A program made the translations under genes and the position numbers. A stretch of 6,710 bases of DNA from Acidobacteriota bacterium (GTDB taxonomy: Bacteria > Acidobacteriota > UBA6911): the NCBI GenBank assembly GCA_031254095.1, contig JAIRVC010000195.1, positions 1 to 6,710 of the forward strand, written 5' to 3'. Positions 538-6,710 of the stretch are shown here, in pieces (position 1 is the stretch's first letter; each line of letters begins with the position of its first letter). The notes beneath the pieces are model-generated. The model worked only from the letters and a program-made list of their open reading frames with translations, did no database searches and was not told where the DNA came from.

Positions 538-1986
538 TCACAGGCTATCCCCGAAGTCCGCTTTAAATTTTGCGACGAGTTTTTGCTGCCAGTCGCCGGT
601 CGCTTCCAGCGTGCCGTAGAAGAAACGGAGAATTTTCGGTTCGTCGAGCCACTTGAGACCGCCGACGAGATATCGGTTTTGGTAGAGCCAATTGAGCCGG
701 TCAACCGTGTAAACGATCTGCGACATCGTAAACACCCGGCGGGGCAGCGCGAGCCGGACGAGTTCCATGTGGGCAAGCGGTTCCGTTCCGTCTTCGTTTC
801 GCTGCTCAGACATCGTGCCGCGCTCCATACCGCGCACGCCGCTGGTTATGTAAAGCGCCGATGCCAGCGCCCCGGCCGTGTATTGCGTCTGCGAAATGTG
901 CGGCAGGAATTCCCGCGCGTTGACGTGGCAGCCCAATCCTCCCGGCGGCGTCACAACCGGGACATTGTGTTTGATGAGTTCGTTCGTCATGTATTCGATG
1001 AACTGCGGCCCCTGCGAAACGACATCTTCGTCCAGCGTTTCGTACAGGCCGACCGCCAACGCTTCCATTTCGCGAACCGACATCCCGCCATAAGTCAGGA
1101 AGCCTTCGTACAGCGGAATGTATCCGCGAATGTCGAGATAAAACTGCTTGTTGCCCGTACAAATTCCGCCGCCGCGGGCAAAGCCGAGTTTGCGTCCGGA
1201 AAAATAAATAATGTCGCTTGCCGCCGCCATTGCCAGGGCGATTTCATGGATGCTCATATCCTTGCAGGCGGCTTCGCGCTGCTTGATAAAATAAAGATTA
1301 TCCGAAAGCAGGCTGACGTCCTGTATAAGCGGAATGCCGTTCGCGCGGCACAGGCTCGAAACCTCTTGCAGGTTTTGCAGCGAGAACGGTTGTCCGCCGA
1401 TCAGGTTTGTGCCTGCTTCCATGCGGACATAAGCGATTCCGTCCCTGCCGAGTTCCGCAATCACCTGTTTCAAGGCCGCGATGTCCATGTTCCCCTTGAA
1501 CGGGCAGGTTGAGGTCGTATTAAACGCATCCTTTACGGGAATTTCAAGGATTTCGCCGCCCAGTTCGGTGATGTGTGCTTTAGAAGTGGTGAAATGATAA
1601 TTCATCGGGACCATCTGGCCTTTTTTAACGAGAGCCTTGGCAATGACGTGCTCACAGGCGCGGCCCTGGTGGGCGGGCAGGAAATATTCCATCCCAAAAA
1701 CATGCCGTAACGCCTTTTCGAGGCGATAAAACGTGGCGGAACCGGCGTAGCTGTCGTCCGCCTGCATCATGGCCGCCTGCTGATCGTTTGACATGGCGTT
1801 TACCCCGCTGTCGGTCAGCATGTCGAGAAAAACGTCCGCATTTTTGAGTAAAAAAGTATTATTTCCAGCCCGTTTCATCGCTTCAAGCCGTTCGTCTATC
1901 GTGGGCAGGTTAAGTTTTTGAATGATCCTCACGCGGTGCATTTCAATCGGTGTCGTTTTGCCGGAAAAAAACTTAATATTAGCCAT
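538..1986 (-). CDS. PLP-dependent beta-eliminating lyase, tyrosine phenol-lyase / tryptophanase family (divergent)
   Basis: The family splits tyrosine to phenol, pyruvate and ammonia, or tryptophan to indole, pyruvate and ammonia, in the cytoplasm. At 482 residues the length is normal. Compared from memory with Citrobacter tyrosine phenol-lyase, the following are conserved: Tyr80 (Tyr71) in SYAGS, Arg109 (Arg100) in HQGR, Asn194 before GGQP, Asp223 (Asp214), the Schiff-base Lys266 (Lys257) in SGRK, Arg411 (Arg404) and Phe455 (Phe448). Thr133 in HFTT and Arg389 in GMERG match the tyrosine phenol-lyase residues Thr124 and Arg381, rather than the Asp and Ile of tryptophanase, so a phenolic substrate is favoured. 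Oddities: the family motif DxxR in front of the NAYFIK-like segment reads DVSL, so Arg217 is Leu226. Two cation-site positions also appear changed (Glu69 to Asp78, Asn262 to Arg271). The start ATG has GAAAGG 9 nt upstream (1996-2001). The exact substrate is uncertain, so no symbol is given. Confidence 0.85.
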   Translation of the reverse strand: MANIKFFSGKTTPIEMHRVRIIQKLNLPTIDERLEAMKRAGNNTFLLKNADVFLDMLTDSGVNAMSNDQQAAMMQADDSYAGSATFYRLEKALRHVFGMEYFLPAHQGRACEHVIAKALVKKGQMVPMNYHFTTSKAHITELGGEILEIPVKDAFNTTSTCPFKGNMDIAALKQVIAELGRDGIAYVRMEAGTNLIGGQPFSLQNLQEVSSLCRANGIPLIQDVSLLSDNLYFIKQREAACKDMSIHEIALAMAAASDIIYFSGRKLGFARGGGICTGNKQFYLDIRGYIPLYEGFLTYGGMSVREMEALAVGLYETLDEDVVSQGPQFIEYMTNELIKHNVPVVTPPGGLGCHVNAREFLPHISQTQYTAGALASALYITSGVRGMERGTMSEQRNEDGTEPLAHMELVRLALPRRVFTMSQIVYTVDRLNWLYQNRYLVGGLKWLDEPKILRFFYGTLEATGDWQQKLVAKFKADFGDSL

Positions 1987-2210: not shown

Positions 2211-2237
2211 TACTGTTTTACAAAATTTTGCCGATAA
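2211..2237 (+). promoter_or_regulatory. Sigma-28 (FliA) type promoter of the hydrogenase-like chemoreceptor gene
   Basis: TACTGTTT (2211-2218), an 11-bp spacer and GCCGATAA (2230-2237) match the enterobacterial FliA consensus TAAAGTTT-N11-GCCGATAA at 14 of 16 positions. The -10 octamer is exact and the spacing is exact. Sigma-28 transcribes late flagellar and chemoreceptor genes, which fits the MCP signalling domain of the downstream product. Transcription would start near 2244, giving a leader of about 45 nt before the ATG at 2290. That makes an upstream in-frame TTG at 2245 an unlikely start. Confidence 0.7.
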
Positions 2238-2289: not shown

Positions 2290-4005
2290 ATGCGCAAGGT
2301 TATTACAAATGATATGGAAAAATGCGTGGGCTGCAATCTCTGCATACGGGTATGCCCTATGGAAGAGGCGAATGTGGCTTATATCGAGAACGGCGAAACC
2401 AAGGTGCGCGTAGACAACGACAAATGTATTGCCTGCGGCGCGTGTCTTCATGCCTGCAATCATGATTCCCGTTCGTATGAAGACGATACCGAGCGCTTTT
2501 TTCTGGATCTGCGTAATGGCACGCCCATATCTCTATTCTGCGCCCCGGCAAGCCGCGCCAGCCTTACAGAATGGAGCAGGATTCTGGCGCTACTGGGAAA
2601 TATGGGTGTCAGAAAAATGTACGATGTTTCACTGGGCGCCGACATCTGCACCTGGGGCCATATACGCTATATACAAAAAAATAATCCTCGCTCATTAATC
2701 TCACAGCCCTGCCCGGCTATTGTGAATTACGTACTTATGCACCGCAATGAGCTTTTGCCCTATTTGTCGCCGGTGCAGTCGCCCATGATGTGCGTCGCCA
2801 TATATATGAGAAACTACCAGGGCGTAACCGACAAAATCGCCGCCATTTCCCCTTGCATAGCAAAAACCAACGAATTTGAAGAATCAGGCGGACTCGTATC
2901 GTACAACATTACTTTCAAAAGACTCGAAGAATACATAAAACGCAATAATCTTAAGCTTCCAGCCCAGGGCAGAGGGTATGACCATATTGATTCATCGCTC
3001 GGCTCGATTTACTCCATGCCCGGCGGCTTGAAGGAAAACGTGGACTTTATGCTCGGCAAAGCTCTGCGCATAGATAAAAGCGAAGGGCAAAAAGTTGTAT
3101 ACAAGGATCTTGACACTTTTAGAAAGGAAGATCCCGCCAACCTGCCGGCCGTATTTGACGTCCTGAACTGCGCCGAAGGATGCAATCTCGGCACGGGATG
3201 CCGTCACGACAAAACGTTATTTGAATTGAACGCGGCGATGGAAAAAGCCCGCCAGAACGCGGTTAAAGGACGCGACAGGGAATATTTTGAGCAACTGTAC
3301 CAGGAATACGACAAAACCCTGCGCCTGAACGACTTTATGCGCAATTACCGTCCCGTCCCGGTGCGCAGCATAAAAATCGACAATAACGCGATCGAAGAAG
3401 CATTCGTTCAGCTCGGCAAGCATGACGATGAAAACCGCACCTTTGATTGCGGCGCCTGCGGTTCCGACACATGCCTGGAGATGGCGCAAAAAATAGCCAA
3501 AAAGATAAACACGCACGAAAACTGCATCAAGCGGGCGCACGATATTATGAAGGCCGAACACGCCACGATTGTGACATGGCAGAAGAATAACACGGAAGCC
3601 ATTAATACAATTTCAGCCGACATTGACGAAATCAAGGTTATGACGGACAAGATTGTCAGCACTGTGACCGATGTCGATAAATTAATAAATCTTTACGACA
3701 TGGTAACCAAGGATATCGACAAAATCGCCTCAAATGTCCACATGATTTCTATCAACGCATCCATCGAAGCGGCGCGCGCCGGCGATCAGGGGCGTTCTTT
3801 TGCCGTTGTGGCCGAGGCTATCCGCAGCCTGGCCGGTGAAACGCAGAAAGCTACCGCTAAAATCTCCAATGCGACGGGTGAAGCCAAGAGCGCCCTTGGC
3901 GCGATATCCAAAATGGTGACGACTATAGGCGAGGATGTTACCAAGGCTAATAGCGATGTCCGTGAAATAGCGGGTCGCACAAATGATCTGCTGAAAAATA
4001 ATTAA
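2290..4005 (+). CDS. [FeFe]-hydrogenase-like / MCP fusion: putative cytoplasmic hydrogen- or redox-sensing chemoreceptor
   Basis: The product has 571 residues and no membrane segment or signal peptide. Domains in order: two ferredoxin-type 4Fe-4S motifs (Cys12, 15, 18, 22 and Cys46, 49, 52, 56); an [FeFe]-hydrogenase large-subunit domain (about 70-350); a CGACGSDTC-type 4Fe-4S module (Cys387, 390, 395, 412); and an MCP signalling hairpin (about 425-571) with the typical tip INASIEAARAG followed by FAVVAEAIRSLA. In the hydrogenase domain the three H-cluster loops are visible as SQPCP (Cys141), SPCIAK (Cys189, Lys192) and NCAEGC (Cys294, Cys298), so all four cluster-binding cysteines remain. 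The proton-relay cysteine of the usual TSCCP loop is Pro140, and the methionine of the usual MPC motif is Ser187. This pattern fits regulatory, not catalytic, [FeFe] proteins. Inference: H2 or electron state at the clusters alters the MCP helices and hence CheA activity. The FliA-type promoter agrees. The gene has no terminator of its own and runs into a mosaic region. Confidence 0.88.
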   Translation: MRKVITNDMEKCVGCNLCIRVCPMEEANVAYIENGETKVRVDNDKCIACGACLHACNHDSRSYEDDTERFFLDLRNGTPISLFCAPASRASLTEWSRILALLGNMGVRKMYDVSLGADICTWGHIRYIQKNNPRSLISQPCPAIVNYVLMHRNELLPYLSPVQSPMMCVAIYMRNYQGVTDKIAAISPCIAKTNEFEESGGLVSYNITFKRLEEYIKRNNLKLPAQGRGYDHIDSSLGSIYSMPGGLKENVDFMLGKALRIDKSEGQKVVYKDLDTFRKEDPANLPAVFDVLNCAEGCNLGTGCRHDKTLFELNAAMEKARQNAVKGRDREYFEQLYQEYDKTLRLNDFMRNYRPVPVRSIKIDNNAIEEAFVQLGKHDDENRTFDCGACGSDTCLEMAQKIAKKINTHENCIKRAHDIMKAEHATIVTWQKNNTEAINTISADIDEIKVMTDKIVSTVTDVDKLINLYDMVTKDIDKIASNVHMISINASIEAARAGDQGRSFAVVAEAIRSLAGETQKATAKISNATGEAKSALGAISKMVTTIGEDVTKANSDVREIAGRTNDLLKNN

Positions 4006-4099: not shown

Positions 4100-4735
4100 A
4101 TGTTGGGAGTACTTAAGCCTGCCGAGGGCGGTCTGCGAAGTGTAGGCGTTTTTTTCCTCGAATTCATGAAGTGCCCGGCCGCGGTGGGATCCATCTGTCT
4201 GAGCGGCGCTACGTTGGCTAACCGGCTGCTCGAAGGAGTTTCCAGAGAAGAAGATGGGCTGGTTATTGATCTTGGAGCCGGTTTAGGTCCGGTTAGCGCC
4301 CACATGATGCGTTCAGGCATTGCGAAAGACAGAATTATTGCCATTGAGGTTAACGGCGTCTTTAAGGAACTTTTTGCAGCCCGTTGTCCTGGTGTCCGGC
4401 TCGTTATTGCGGACGCAAGAGAGCTGAAAGCAATTCTGGACCGGGAAGCACCGGGTAGAAAAATTTCTGCCATTGTCTCTTCATTGCCTATCAGGGTGTT
4501 GGGGTCGCAACTTACTGAAAACATCTTGCAGCAAGTGAAATCAGTGCTGCGAGAGAGAGGAGGCGTGTTAATTCAGTATAGTTATGCGCTGTGGCTCAAT
4601 TACCCCCTGCAAGACTATGGGCTTGCGCCTGGCTCAGCTTCAATCGTATGGAAAAACCTGCCCCCTGCGCGCGTGGAGTCCTATAGGGTTTGGAATAAAA
4701 GAACAACAAAGCTGATAGCGATGTCCGCGAAATAG
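4100..4735 (+). CDS. SAM-dependent methyltransferase, phospholipid N-methyltransferase (PmtA)-like / rRNA dimethylase-like
   Basis: The 211-residue product carries a class I methyltransferase fold. Motif I is VIDLGAGLGPVS (about 55-66), the acidic end of strand 2 is in IIAIEVN, and SSLPI near residue 131 stands where N-methyltransferases carry an NLPY-like motif. The N-terminal FFLEFMKCPAAVGSI and the late VWKNLPPARVESYR resemble the bacterial PmtA-type family that methylates phosphatidylethanolamine. Distinguishing it from rRNA adenine dimethylase relatives is not possible by eye. An in-frame TAA at 4082 restricts the start to the ATG at 4100, which has only a weak GGA upstream. The last residues (about 200-211) and the stop come from the second copy of the chemoreceptor tail repeat, so the native C-terminus was probably replaced. 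It sits in the chemoreceptor's transcription path, but its gene is likely an insertion rather than a functional partner. Confidence 0.75.
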   Translation: MLGVLKPAEGGLRSVGVFFLEFMKCPAAVGSICLSGATLANRLLEGVSREEDGLVIDLGAGLGPVSAHMMRSGIAKDRIIAIEVNGVFKELFAARCPGVRLVIADARELKAILDREAPGRKISAIVSSLPIRVLGSQLTENILQQVKSVLRERGGVLIQYSYALWLNYPLQDYGLAPGSASIVWKNLPPARVESYRVWNKRTTKLIAMSAK

Positions 4736-4818: not shown

Positions 4819-5088
4819 TTACCGGTTAGGACAGTTAGCGCCGCCGCCGCTGCCGTCCTGTGGGCCGGTTTTCTTACCGCCGCCGCCCGTGCCGTCCTGC
4901 GGGCCGGTTTTCTTGCCGCCGCCGCTGCCAGCGCCCGTGCCGCCCAAAAGCAGTTCTTTGAGAATCGGGCCGGTTCCGTCCTGCGCTCCGCCTCCCTTGC
5001 CGTTGCCGGCAAACGCCGCTACGGATAGTGTGGATGCGAGCAATACGGAGACTGCGCAAACACAAATACTTCTTTTGAAGCTTTTCAT
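4819..5088 (-). CDS. Small secreted glycine-rich protein with GPQDGTG repeats
   Basis: This 89-residue protein begins MKSFKRS, a basic n-region, followed by a hydrophobic stretch (about 8-26) and an AFA site that predicts signal-peptidase cleavage after residue 27. The mature part of about 62 residues is nearly half glycine. It contains AQDGTG (35-40), a short non-repetitive LKELLLG stretch and two 13-residue units, GGGKKTGPQDGTG (56-68) and GGGKKTGPQDGSG (69-81). It ends in NCPNR with one cysteine. An AGGAGG ribosome site (5096-5101) lies 7 nt before the ATG, and the stop is followed at once by a terminator, so the gene is real. GPxDGTG-type small exported proteins are something I recall from other bacteria and archaea, without known function. 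It is divergent from the two-component genes, which may control it. No function is assigned. Confidence 0.78.
   Translation of the reverse strand: MKSFKRSICVCAVSVLLASTLSVAAFAGNGKGGGAQDGTGPILKELLLGGTGAGSGGGKKTGPQDGTGGGGKKTGPQDGSGGGANCPNR
4846..4923 (-). repeat. Two in-frame 39-bp tandem repeats in the glycine-rich gene
   Basis: Units 4885-4923 and 4846-4884 are identical at 35 of 39 positions and each encodes 13 residues ending in GPQDG(T/S)G. Copy number could vary between strains by slippage without breaking the frame. Confidence 0.85.
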
Positions 5089-5266: not shown

Positions 5267-5953
5267 ATGCCCAGTATCTTAATAGCCGACGACAACAAAC
5301 AAATCGTTTCCATATTGGAGGAATACGCGAAAAAGGAAGGCTTTACCGTCGTTTCAGCCTATGACGGGAGCGAAGCCTTAACGAAAGCGCTCGGTGCGCC
5401 GTTCGACATAATTTTGCTCGACGTTATGATGCCGCGGATTGACGGATTTGAAGTTTGCCGTGAGATACGGAAGAACTCCACTGTCCCCATTATTATGGTC
5501 ACAGCGAGAGGAGAGGATTTCGAGCGCATCATGGGACTCGACAACGGCGCGGATGATTACATCGTAAAACCCTTTTCTCCCGCTGAAGTTATGGCAAGAG
5601 TACGGGCTGTTCTGCGCCGGATTACGCGCGAGAGCGGAGCGGCGGAGCAAATTTTTACTTTTGAGGATTTATCGATTAACCTTGACGAATACATTACGCA
5701 AATCGGCGACGTAAAGATCGCTTTAACAAAAAAAGAAACAGAGATTTTATGGACGCTGGCAACAAATAAAAACAAAGTGTTTTCCCGCAAGAATCTTTTG
5801 AACAGTTTATGGGGACATAATTATTACGGAGACGCGCGAACGGTCGATTCCCACATAAAACGCTTGCGCGCCAAGCTGGACGAGGCTCCCCATCCGGAGT
5901 GGGAGATAAAAACTATATGGAGCGTGGGTTATAAATTTGAGGTTGAGACGTGA
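5267..5953 (+). CDS. Two-component response regulator, OmpR/PhoB family
   Basis: The 228-residue DNA-binding regulator is the partner of the sensor kinase encoded next. The receiver domain (about 1-118) shows the acidic pair Asp8-Asp9, phosphoacceptor Asp52 in LLDVMMP, Thr79 in MVTA and Lys101 in VKPF, all the residues expected for phosphorylation. The C-terminal winged-helix domain (about 128-225) shows LTKKETEIL, the recognition-helix region DARTVDSHIKRLRAKL, and the closing GYKF hairpin. The ATG at 5267 is preceded by GGGAG at 8 nt. The open frame continues upstream without a stop but has no homology there, and the in-frame GTG at 5258 would overlap its own ribosome site. Its stop overlaps the kinase start as GTGA, so the two are translationally coupled. 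By position a target could be the divergent glycine-rich gene. That is inference. Confidence 0.93.
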   Translation: MPSILIADDNKQIVSILEEYAKKEGFTVVSAYDGSEALTKALGAPFDIILLDVMMPRIDGFEVCREIRKNSTVPIIMVTARGEDFERIMGLDNGADDYIVKPFSPAEVMARVRAVLRRITRESGAAEQIFTFEDLSINLDEYITQIGDVKIALTKKETEILWTLATNKNKVFSRKNLLNSLWGHNYYGDARTVDSHIKRLRAKLDEAPHPEWEIKTIWSVGYKFEVET

Positions 5954-6710
5954 AAAATAAAATCCTGCTTCGTCTGATTTCATATTTTGTTACATCGTTC
6001 ATTATTTTTGCCCTCGTTATCTGTGTGATATTTTCGATCTTTTTTTCAAGATACAACACAAACGCGCATAAAGTCGAATTGGAAAAAAGAACCGTCAATG
6101 TTGCCGATACGCTGTCCGGAATGCTTGAGGACAATGTTGACGGCATGGCGAAAAAAGGCACGGGTTATGGCGCGTATCTGCGATTCATTGAAGATATTTC
6201 AATGAATGAGGCATGGGTCGTCAATCGCGATTTGAAACCGATTGTCTGCGCGTTTGAAGAACGCATTGCGGGTCACGCGGAATTAATGAACAAGGAATTG
6301 CCGGACTGGGCGGTTGAAACTGTTTTAAGGGCCATCAACGAAAAAACCTTGATAAGTGAAAGCAACGGCGCGTTTTTAGGAGCCGCGTCCGCCACAACCG
6401 CCGCGCCGATTATTTTACCGGACGGCAGCGTGATAGGCGCGGCGGTTTTACACTCTCATGTATCCGACGTGGACGATATAACCCGCAACGGCGTTATTAT
6501 CCTCGTTTTCAGTATGACGACCGCCGTTTTTATATCTTTTTTCGTCGCCGTTATTCTTTCTTCACGTTTTACAAAGCCGCTTGGCAAAATGAAAAAGGCC
6601 GCGCTGCGGATCAGTGCCGGGGATTACACCGCCAAAACGGGCGTAGAGCAATCGGATGAAATCGGCGAACTGGCCTCGGTCATGGATGACATGGCCGATA
6701 AACTGGAAGC
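5950..6710 (+). CDS. Sensor histidine kinase, N-terminal sensor and HAMP part, cut by window edge
   Basis: The GTG start overlaps the regulator's TGA by 4 bp. The 253 visible codons encode a first membrane helix (about residues 9-32), an extracytoplasmic sensor region of about 145 residues, a second membrane helix (about 182-204) and a HAMP linker with Pro210 and a DEIGEL motif (236-241). The dimerisation/phosphoacceptor (HisKA) and ATPase domains would follow beyond 6710. The sensor region contains YGAYLRFIEDIS, NEAWVVNRDLKP and ILPDGSVIGAAVLHS, suggestive of a PAS/Cache-like fold, but the ligand cannot be read from it. Residues 215-234 of the HAMP are encoded by the segment (6592-6651) that recurs as an orphan fragment at 4005-4064. 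The kinase assignment is inferred from the regulator partner and architecture, since the catalytic part is out of view. Confidence 0.85.
   Translation, partial: MKNKILLRLISYFVTSFIIFALVICVIFSIFFSRYNTNAHKVELEKRTVNVADTLSGMLEDNVDGMAKKGTGYGAYLRFIEDISMNEAWVVNRDLKPIVCAFEERIAGHAELMNKELPDWAVETVLRAINEKTLISESNGAFLGAASATTAAPIILPDGSVIGAAVLHSHVSDVDDITRNGVIILVFSMTTAVFISFFVAVILSSRFTKPLGKMKKAALRISAGDYTAKTGVEQSDEIGELASVMDDMADKLE
6592..6651 (+). repeat. HAMP-encoding segment duplicated at 4005-4064
   Basis: This intact copy lies in frame within the kinase gene. It matches the orphan fragment at 54 of 60 positions with no gaps, beginning exactly at AAAAAGGCC, and identity stops abruptly after GCAA. Confidence 0.85.

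Follow-up and report, generated by a model that had tools for sequence, protein, structure and literature searches.

A gene that joins an [FeFe]-hydrogenase H-domain to the signalling hairpin of a methyl-accepting chemotaxis protein (MCP) raises the question of whether a chemotaxis receptor can read H2 directly. Such a gene was present in the window, the 6,710-nucleotide stretch of DNA from an Acidobacteriota genome that was analysed here (Table 1). The preliminary description of this DNA had listed ferredoxin clusters, an H-domain with four cysteines, a further 4Fe-4S module and an MCP hairpin in one protein, and this list was borne out by profile searches and alignment. All 47 aligned sequences shared both N-terminal ferredoxin-type [4Fe-4S] motifs, the four H-cluster cysteines and Lys192, and the Cx2Cx4Cx16C motif had an identical length across the 168 proteins measured. 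The hairpin tip, NASIEAARAG, is the conserved MCP tip for CheA/CheW, while no Pfam match to a PAS domain was obtained in the 571-residue protein at E 0.001. The structure model proposed in the same description matched the H-domain fold and predicted a two-helix MCP hairpin, with helices at residues 410–496 and 498–570.

Table 1. Features of the window, with positions counted from its first nucleotide
Feature	Position	Strand	Remarks
Tryptophanase-family lyase, divergent neighbour	538..1986	-	NF009709
Sigma-28 (FliA/SigD)-like promoter	2211..2237	+	TACTGTTT-N11-GCCGATAA; 52 bp before sensor ATG
H-domain chemoreceptor gene, 571 aa	2290..4005	+	Single chain, fused sensor and MCP hairpin
Two ferredoxin-type [4Fe-4S] motifs	2305..2466	+	C12,15,18,22 and C46,49,52,56; Pfam Fer4 families
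[FeFe]-hydrogenase H-domain, residues 80-304	2527..3201	+	PF02906, alignment to solved hydrogenases, fold match
H-cluster ligands (L1, L2, L3) C141, C189, C294, C298	2710, 2854, 3169, 3181		K192 at 2863
C-terminal Cx2Cx4Cx16C [4Fe-4S] module	3448..3525	+	C387, C390, C395, C412; PF04060
MCP signalling hairpin, residues 410-571	3517..4002	+	PF00015 over cut-off
Hairpin tip Glu493	3766		
Methyltransferase-like neighbour	4100..4735	+	Nearest models OlsG/PmtA, far below cut-off
OmpR-type response regulator neighbour	5267..5953	+	Profile matches
HAMP sensor protein neighbour, WalK-like	5950..6708	+	Profile matches; runs past window end

The domain-architecture search that had been suggested demonstrated that the fusion of H-domain and MCP is common, with at least 6199 relatives at E 0.001 among 7999 candidates scored. 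As PF00015 was present in 119 of the best 120 relatives, the window's own protein included, an assembly chimera of H-domain and MCP was rejected; P0083, also among the best 120, had a GGDEF domain in place of PF00015. In addition, one genome per species was scanned for 84,980 species, by which at least 581 stretches were confirmed. The best 80 loci were analysed, and the 50 genomes searched for maturases and CheA were drawn from them. Eighteen loci were of non-MCP type. Thirteen of these, which are all 13 of the genome tally, were scanned with Pfam, and the other five were classed by their length and missing tip. All 13 scanned relatives had a kinase or GGDEF domain behind the same Fer4–H-domain module: ten had a hybrid histidine kinase, some with PAS (L046, L048, L053, L054, L057, L059, L061, L062, L069 and L071), one, truncated where its contig stops, had a PAS-GAF-HisKA chain (L047), and two had GGDEF (L049 and L082). 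In L053 (1311-5351), one chain comprised the sensor module, PAS, the hybrid kinase and, at its C-terminus, a hemerythrin domain, and this protein possibly combines H2 and O2 inputs. Four loci without the tip pattern (L034, L038, L041 and L042) were counted as MCP-type by length and full-length match, as was L022, which is not in one frame, by its match to residues 1-570.

The manner in which sensor and rod are joined was evaluated from the spacing between the last cluster cysteine and the tip glutamate, which is 81 residues in the window protein (C412 to Glu493). The set comprised 198 proteins, P0001 and P0083 having been excluded beforehand; 168 were measured, and 30 were left out (18 non-MCP, 10 with a deviant tip, and 2 without the cluster motif). 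The spacing was 4 modulo 7 in 159 of the 168 proteins, many of them close relatives; a constant heptad phase is what an uninterrupted coiled coil requires. Lengths of 67, 74, 81, 116 and 123 shared the heptad phase, and 77, 78, 80 and 84, i.e., four of the nine lengths, broke it. Chemoreceptor length classes differ by heptads, and the shared phase of five lengths thus fits an ordinary MCP coiled coil rigidly joined to the sensor. Since only 78 residues follow the tip, whereas the genome's other four MCPs have 171-183 there, the usual methylation-adaptation region is, by sequence, probably lacking in this short hairpin.

As the hairpin is far shorter than the other MCPs of its genome, it might feed a non-flagellar pathway or merely dimerise, with the H-domain still sensing H2 or redox state. 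The existence of relatives with non-chemotactic outputs is consistent with this, and so is the one MCP-type genome without CheA (G025). However, the tip is conserved, CheA (PF02895) was found in 36 of the 37 MCP-type genomes (and in 9 of the 13 non-MCP genomes), and a sigma-28-like promoter lies ahead of the window gene. A non-flagellar output was judged unlikely. In the search of the window genome for cheA/cheW, another step of the preliminary description, CheW, CheB and CheR were identified along with a pair of additional CheW-like domains. On contig C292, a protein with two CheW-like domains, cut by the contig end, is followed in order by CheW, an MCP, CheB and CheR, and the cut protein is possibly the end of CheA.

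The promoter-like site agreed with the sigma-28 consensus at 14 of 16 positions and was the sole match in the window at up to three mismatches, where 0.08 were expected. Elsewhere in the window, and across 70,826 bases of its own genome (both strands counted), no site of at least 13/16 was detected, and one of the three testable MCP genes of that genome had a 12/16 site 46 bp upstream. Of the 79 loci extracted, 78 also had their upstream regions scanned, L074 being omitted as it had no upstream sequence. None of the 78 relatives reached 13/16, so that no conservation of the site across the family was found, and 3 of 60 MCP-type loci reached 12.

Whether the H-domain would hold a complete H-cluster was approached through its pocket and through the maturases. 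According to the alignment to solved hydrogenases, three second-sphere residues (CpI numbers) were replaced, namely, C299 by Pro140, M353 by Ser187, and M497 by Leu292. Pro140 thus stands where the prototypical proton-relay cysteine would be, and proline occupied this position in 48 of the 49 proteins compared. Positions 299, 353 and 497 are altered in sensory enzymes, with the relay cysteine kept in only 17% of them and proline present in approximately 10%, as given in the available text of PMC10055695. The characterised putative sensory enzyme TamHydS (group D/M2e; PMC8163306, PMC11803613 and PMC13104023, each in the portion available) resembles the window protein in its two N-terminal clusters, H-domain, Cx2Cx4Cx16C motif and lack of PAS, and also in Ser at Met353, Leu at Met497 (PMC11803613) and the absence of Cys299. 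TamHydS incorporates the 2Fe site (PMC8163306); therefore, an H-cluster is compatible with the methionine changes by themselves. The differences are that the window protein has an MCP rod and that its residue 299 is Pro, whereas the accessible parts of these sources describe no fused output for TamHydS. Group D enzymes show good conservation of Ser/Thr at position 353 (PMC8163306), and the C387-C412 module, the lack of PAS and Ser187 are group D/M2e marks of the window protein, a likeness by motif. TmHydS (group C/M2f; PMC10055695) likewise has an H-domain and a C-terminal cluster ahead of its signalling part, but it has a PAS domain and Ala at 299. Judged by its residues, the window protein has a pocket like that of TamHydS, the relay position being occupied by Pro.

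The same pocket would also suit a redox receptor that holds the [4Fe-4S] cubane without the 2Fe subcluster and reports ferredoxin redox poise instead of H2. Eukaryotic Nar1/NARF are H-domain proteins of this kind, with a cubane and no 2Fe subcluster. The changes of Cys299 to Pro and Met497 to Leu are in line with such a receptor, as the CpI variant M497L was without a properly integrated 2Fe site (PMC10055695, available text), although TamHydS incorporates this site despite its Leu. HydG was over the cut-off in 28 and HydF in 27 of the 50 relative-bearing genomes (either in 29, both in 26). A genome was regarded as sensor-only when its best PF02906 match had an E above 1e-40, a threshold of our own, and 13 of the 50 were of this type (G002, G005, G006, G008, G013-G017, G021, G033, G034 and G036). 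In eight of these 13 (G002, G008, G013-G017 and G021), HydG and/or HydF were over the cut-off, which argues against a cubane-only receptor; G036 had only a partial HydF, located where a contig ends and scoring below the cut-off, and G005, G006, G033 and G034 had neither protein over it.

Maturase genes were also found next to the sensor gene. In L032, L028 and L030, the sensor gene is followed on the same strand by hydG, with 0, 4 and 6 bp, respectively, between its stop and the start of hydG, and in L029, from an Azoarcus metagenome-assembled genome, hydE-hydF-aspA-hydG lay divergently beside the sensor gene, which encodes the only PF02906 match of that genome. With hydF approximately 1.9 kb from the sensor gene in L023, five of the 80 loci had a maturase gene near the sensor, as far as the flanks examined extend. 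In four of these loci the gene next to the sensor, or close beside it, was hydG, which likewise argues against a cubane-only receptor. Further downstream of the maturases and sensor in L029 (469-5767, 11058-13135), COX1 and FixO terminal-oxidase genes were observed, and the organism, in which [FeFe] maturases occur without any PF02906 match besides the sensor, is probably a proteobacterium that respires oxygen.

The remaining 21 of the 50 genomes, four of them sensor-only, had neither HydG nor HydF over the cut-off, which is a genomic point for a cubane-only receptor. However, 16 of these 21 held other, stronger PF02906 matches, so the maturase gap touches ordinary hydrogenases too; as those proteins would need maturation as well, the absence may be technical. 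The 16 genomes with strong non-sensor [FeFe] matches were G004, G009, G018, G020, G024, G025, G030, G031, G032, G035, G037, G039, G041, G045, G046 and G048. CheA was found in 17 of the 21 negative genomes and in 12 of these 16. Plain incompleteness is therefore unlikely to explain all of the absences, and 16 hydrogenase-bearing, HydG/HydF-negative genomes among the 50 seem too many for assembly gaps alone. HydG or HydF was present in 27 of 37 MCP-type genomes compared with 2 of 13 non-MCP genomes, two groups that differ in taxonomy, so that this comparison is not evidence on mechanism. When the pocket residues of 28 proteins from maturase-positive genomes were compared with those of 21 from maturase-negative genomes, no clear difference was observed. 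In Oxalobacter, a sensor module-GGDEF protein (L049, 5992-8328) occurred with no HydG or HydF over the cut-off and no other PF02906 match, and it is a candidate for a cubane-only version.

In the window genome, which is 76% complete and was searched besides the 50, the hydEFG search recommended earlier was successful only in part. HydE was found cut by a contig end (241 bits against a cut-off of 254.6), whereas neither HydG nor HydF was over the cut-off. HydG was over the cut-off in 8 of the 9 other genomes of the same genus, and within the family the eight other genomes with a sensor relative were exactly the eight others with HydG; as all are of one genus, this counts as one comparison, not eight. 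The genome also encodes a group-A-type hydrogenase adjoining a HydB-like subunit. The absence of hydEFG together with that of cheA/cheW had been named beforehand as the genomic result that would speak against the receptor; this result was not obtained, as the truncated HydE was found together with CheW, CheB and CheR. On genomic grounds, the co-location of sensor and maturase genes and the maturases of the sensor-only genomes newly support a real H-cluster, and a cubane-only receptor was considered rather unlikely.

The H-cluster is a binding site for CO and a target of attack by O2, and the ligand could also be CO, O2 or sulfide, with H2 as just one redox input. The Azoarcus locus near terminal-oxidase genes is compatible with this, but TamHydS and TmHydS are described as unusually CO-tolerant in the portions of the literature available, and such a ligand was regarded as improbable. 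A catalytic hydrogenase with a decorative tail, which the presence of every H-cluster ligand would permit, is highly improbable given the proline at the relay position and the swapping of the output domain among relatives.

Overall, the 571-residue protein is probably an H2 or redox chemoreceptor, as far as its sequence and genomic context can indicate, which would sense H2 and control swimming. In this receptor, H2, or the redox state set by H2, would act at the H-cluster, the 2Fe subcluster of which would be loaded by HydEFG. Turnover of H2 would be slow because the proton-relay cysteine is Pro, and electrons would come to equilibrium with both the Cx2Cx4Cx16C cluster and those at the N-terminus. 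From this C-terminal iron-sulfur cluster the change would pass to the chemotaxis signalling rod: since the predicted helix to the tip, of 87 residues, has C412 in its first turn, a change at the cluster may shift the signalling helix and alter CheA activity. The sensor-only loci with hydG or hydE-hydF-aspA-hydG alongside offer a clean genetic test, as the search of these genomes revealed no catalytic [FeFe] hydrogenase that could obscure the outcome. If this reading is true, bacteria position themselves in gut gradients by reading H2 directly, and one sensor module serves several signalling routes.

The proposal of an H2 or redox receptor acting through CheA/CheW, made in the preliminary description, remains the best reading, but the architecture is common and the chemotaxis link is already contained in HydDB. 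There, [FeFe] group C2 is listed as 'Chemotactic (putative)', and H2 sensing via methyl-accepting chemotaxis proteins is proposed (2016, Sci Rep, PMC5037454, available text). The window protein has PF00015 in the same chain as the H-domain, so its likeness to C2 rests on domain content; it is a direct fusion in which no PAS was found, whereas no anatomy is given for C2 in the part of that source available. Termite-gut bacteria have been hypothesised to orient in H2 gradients by putative sensory hydrogenases, such as those of Fibromonadaceae and MC_77, in a Fibrobacteres study of 2016 citing work of 2007 (PMC4704652). Differences are that the window genome belongs to Acidobacteriota by its RecA and that maturase linkage and output swapping are absent from the accessible text of that account. 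Three of our relatives (L016, L018 and L028) are from the Fibrobacteria bins GUT77 and GUT307, which, judging from their names, belong to that study. Sensory [FeFe] hydrogenases have been proposed from domain content, and a 2022 review, in the portion available, describes the direct physiological evidence as sparse. In the literature searched, as far as its accessible text extends, neither an experiment on a receptor in which [FeFe] and MCP parts are fused nor a report of linkage between sensor and maturase genes was found. Considering the C2 listing and the 2016 hypothesis, this kind of receptor was already known; the window adds one member to it, from an Acidobacteriota genome, and the linkage of sensor and maturase genes is regarded as a useful addition to prior knowledge. 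Hydrogen sensors of termite treponemes are said to have been treated by Ballor and Leadbetter in 2012, and H2 taxis of a methanogen was reportedly described by Brileya in 2013.

The 80 loci were examined for their origin. Bins prefixed Co191, Emb289, Lab288, Nt197 or Th196 accounted for 28 of them, and the GUT77 and GUT307 bins for three. The other bin prefixes among the 80 are presumably those of termite or cockroach bins, and many remaining loci (e.g., L060 and L090, 37-38% identity) were labelled Lachnospiraceae or Roseburia. The five prefixes are used for termite-gut bins in the available text of PMC7886697. In a quick tree of the sensor module (52 rows, of which 3 were assigned to no group), eight named phyla were represented, with 12 phylum-label changes against a minimum of 7. 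The window sensor clustered with Desulfarculales and Desulfovibrio relatives (support 95), while RecA of the window genome was 92-95% identical to Acidobacteriota proteins (P0130, P0141 and P0142) and up to 98% identical to other, closer matches. Within the family of the window genome, sensor proteins at E <=1e-20 were present in 9 of 15 genomes, all of one genus, and the eight besides the window's had 24-42% identity. Based on these sequence comparisons, transfer of the sensor between phyla is the likely reading. It can be suggested only tentatively, as somewhat less than an even prospect, that the module is a mobile hydrogen-taxis cassette: an H-cluster sensor of approximately 430 residues, sometimes with its own hydEFG, spread over at least eight phyla with many gut dwellers and plugged into chemotaxis, c-di-GMP or kinase outputs, the receptor form lacking a PAS relay and having its signalling helix itself supply the final ligand to a [4Fe-4S] cluster. 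The same genome encodes on contig C350 (G000:C350; L004, L111 3-4274) a protein of 1423 residues composed of a hybrid kinase, a sensor module and a second hybrid kinase half; this module clustered with Treponema and Oscillospiraceae modules, unlike the window sensor.

Mis-binning of the window contig would be compatible with the absence of its response regulator from all nine other same-genus genomes at E 1e-60. However, the tetranucleotide correlation of the window with ten other loci of its own genome was 0.934 (those loci among themselves, 0.72-0.94), and with nine loci of other organisms only 0.42-0.81, which argues against mis-binning. Neither a tRNA nor an RNA family reaching the gathering score was detected in the window. 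The lyase upstream was over the subfamily cut-off and below the equivalog cut-offs of tryptophanase and tyrosine phenol-lyase, and no evidence was seen that it is part of the sensor system. A small open reading frame on the reverse strand (4819-5088) has, by eye, a signal-peptide-like start, which is followed by a Gly/Lys/Pro-rich repeat (KKTGPQDG).
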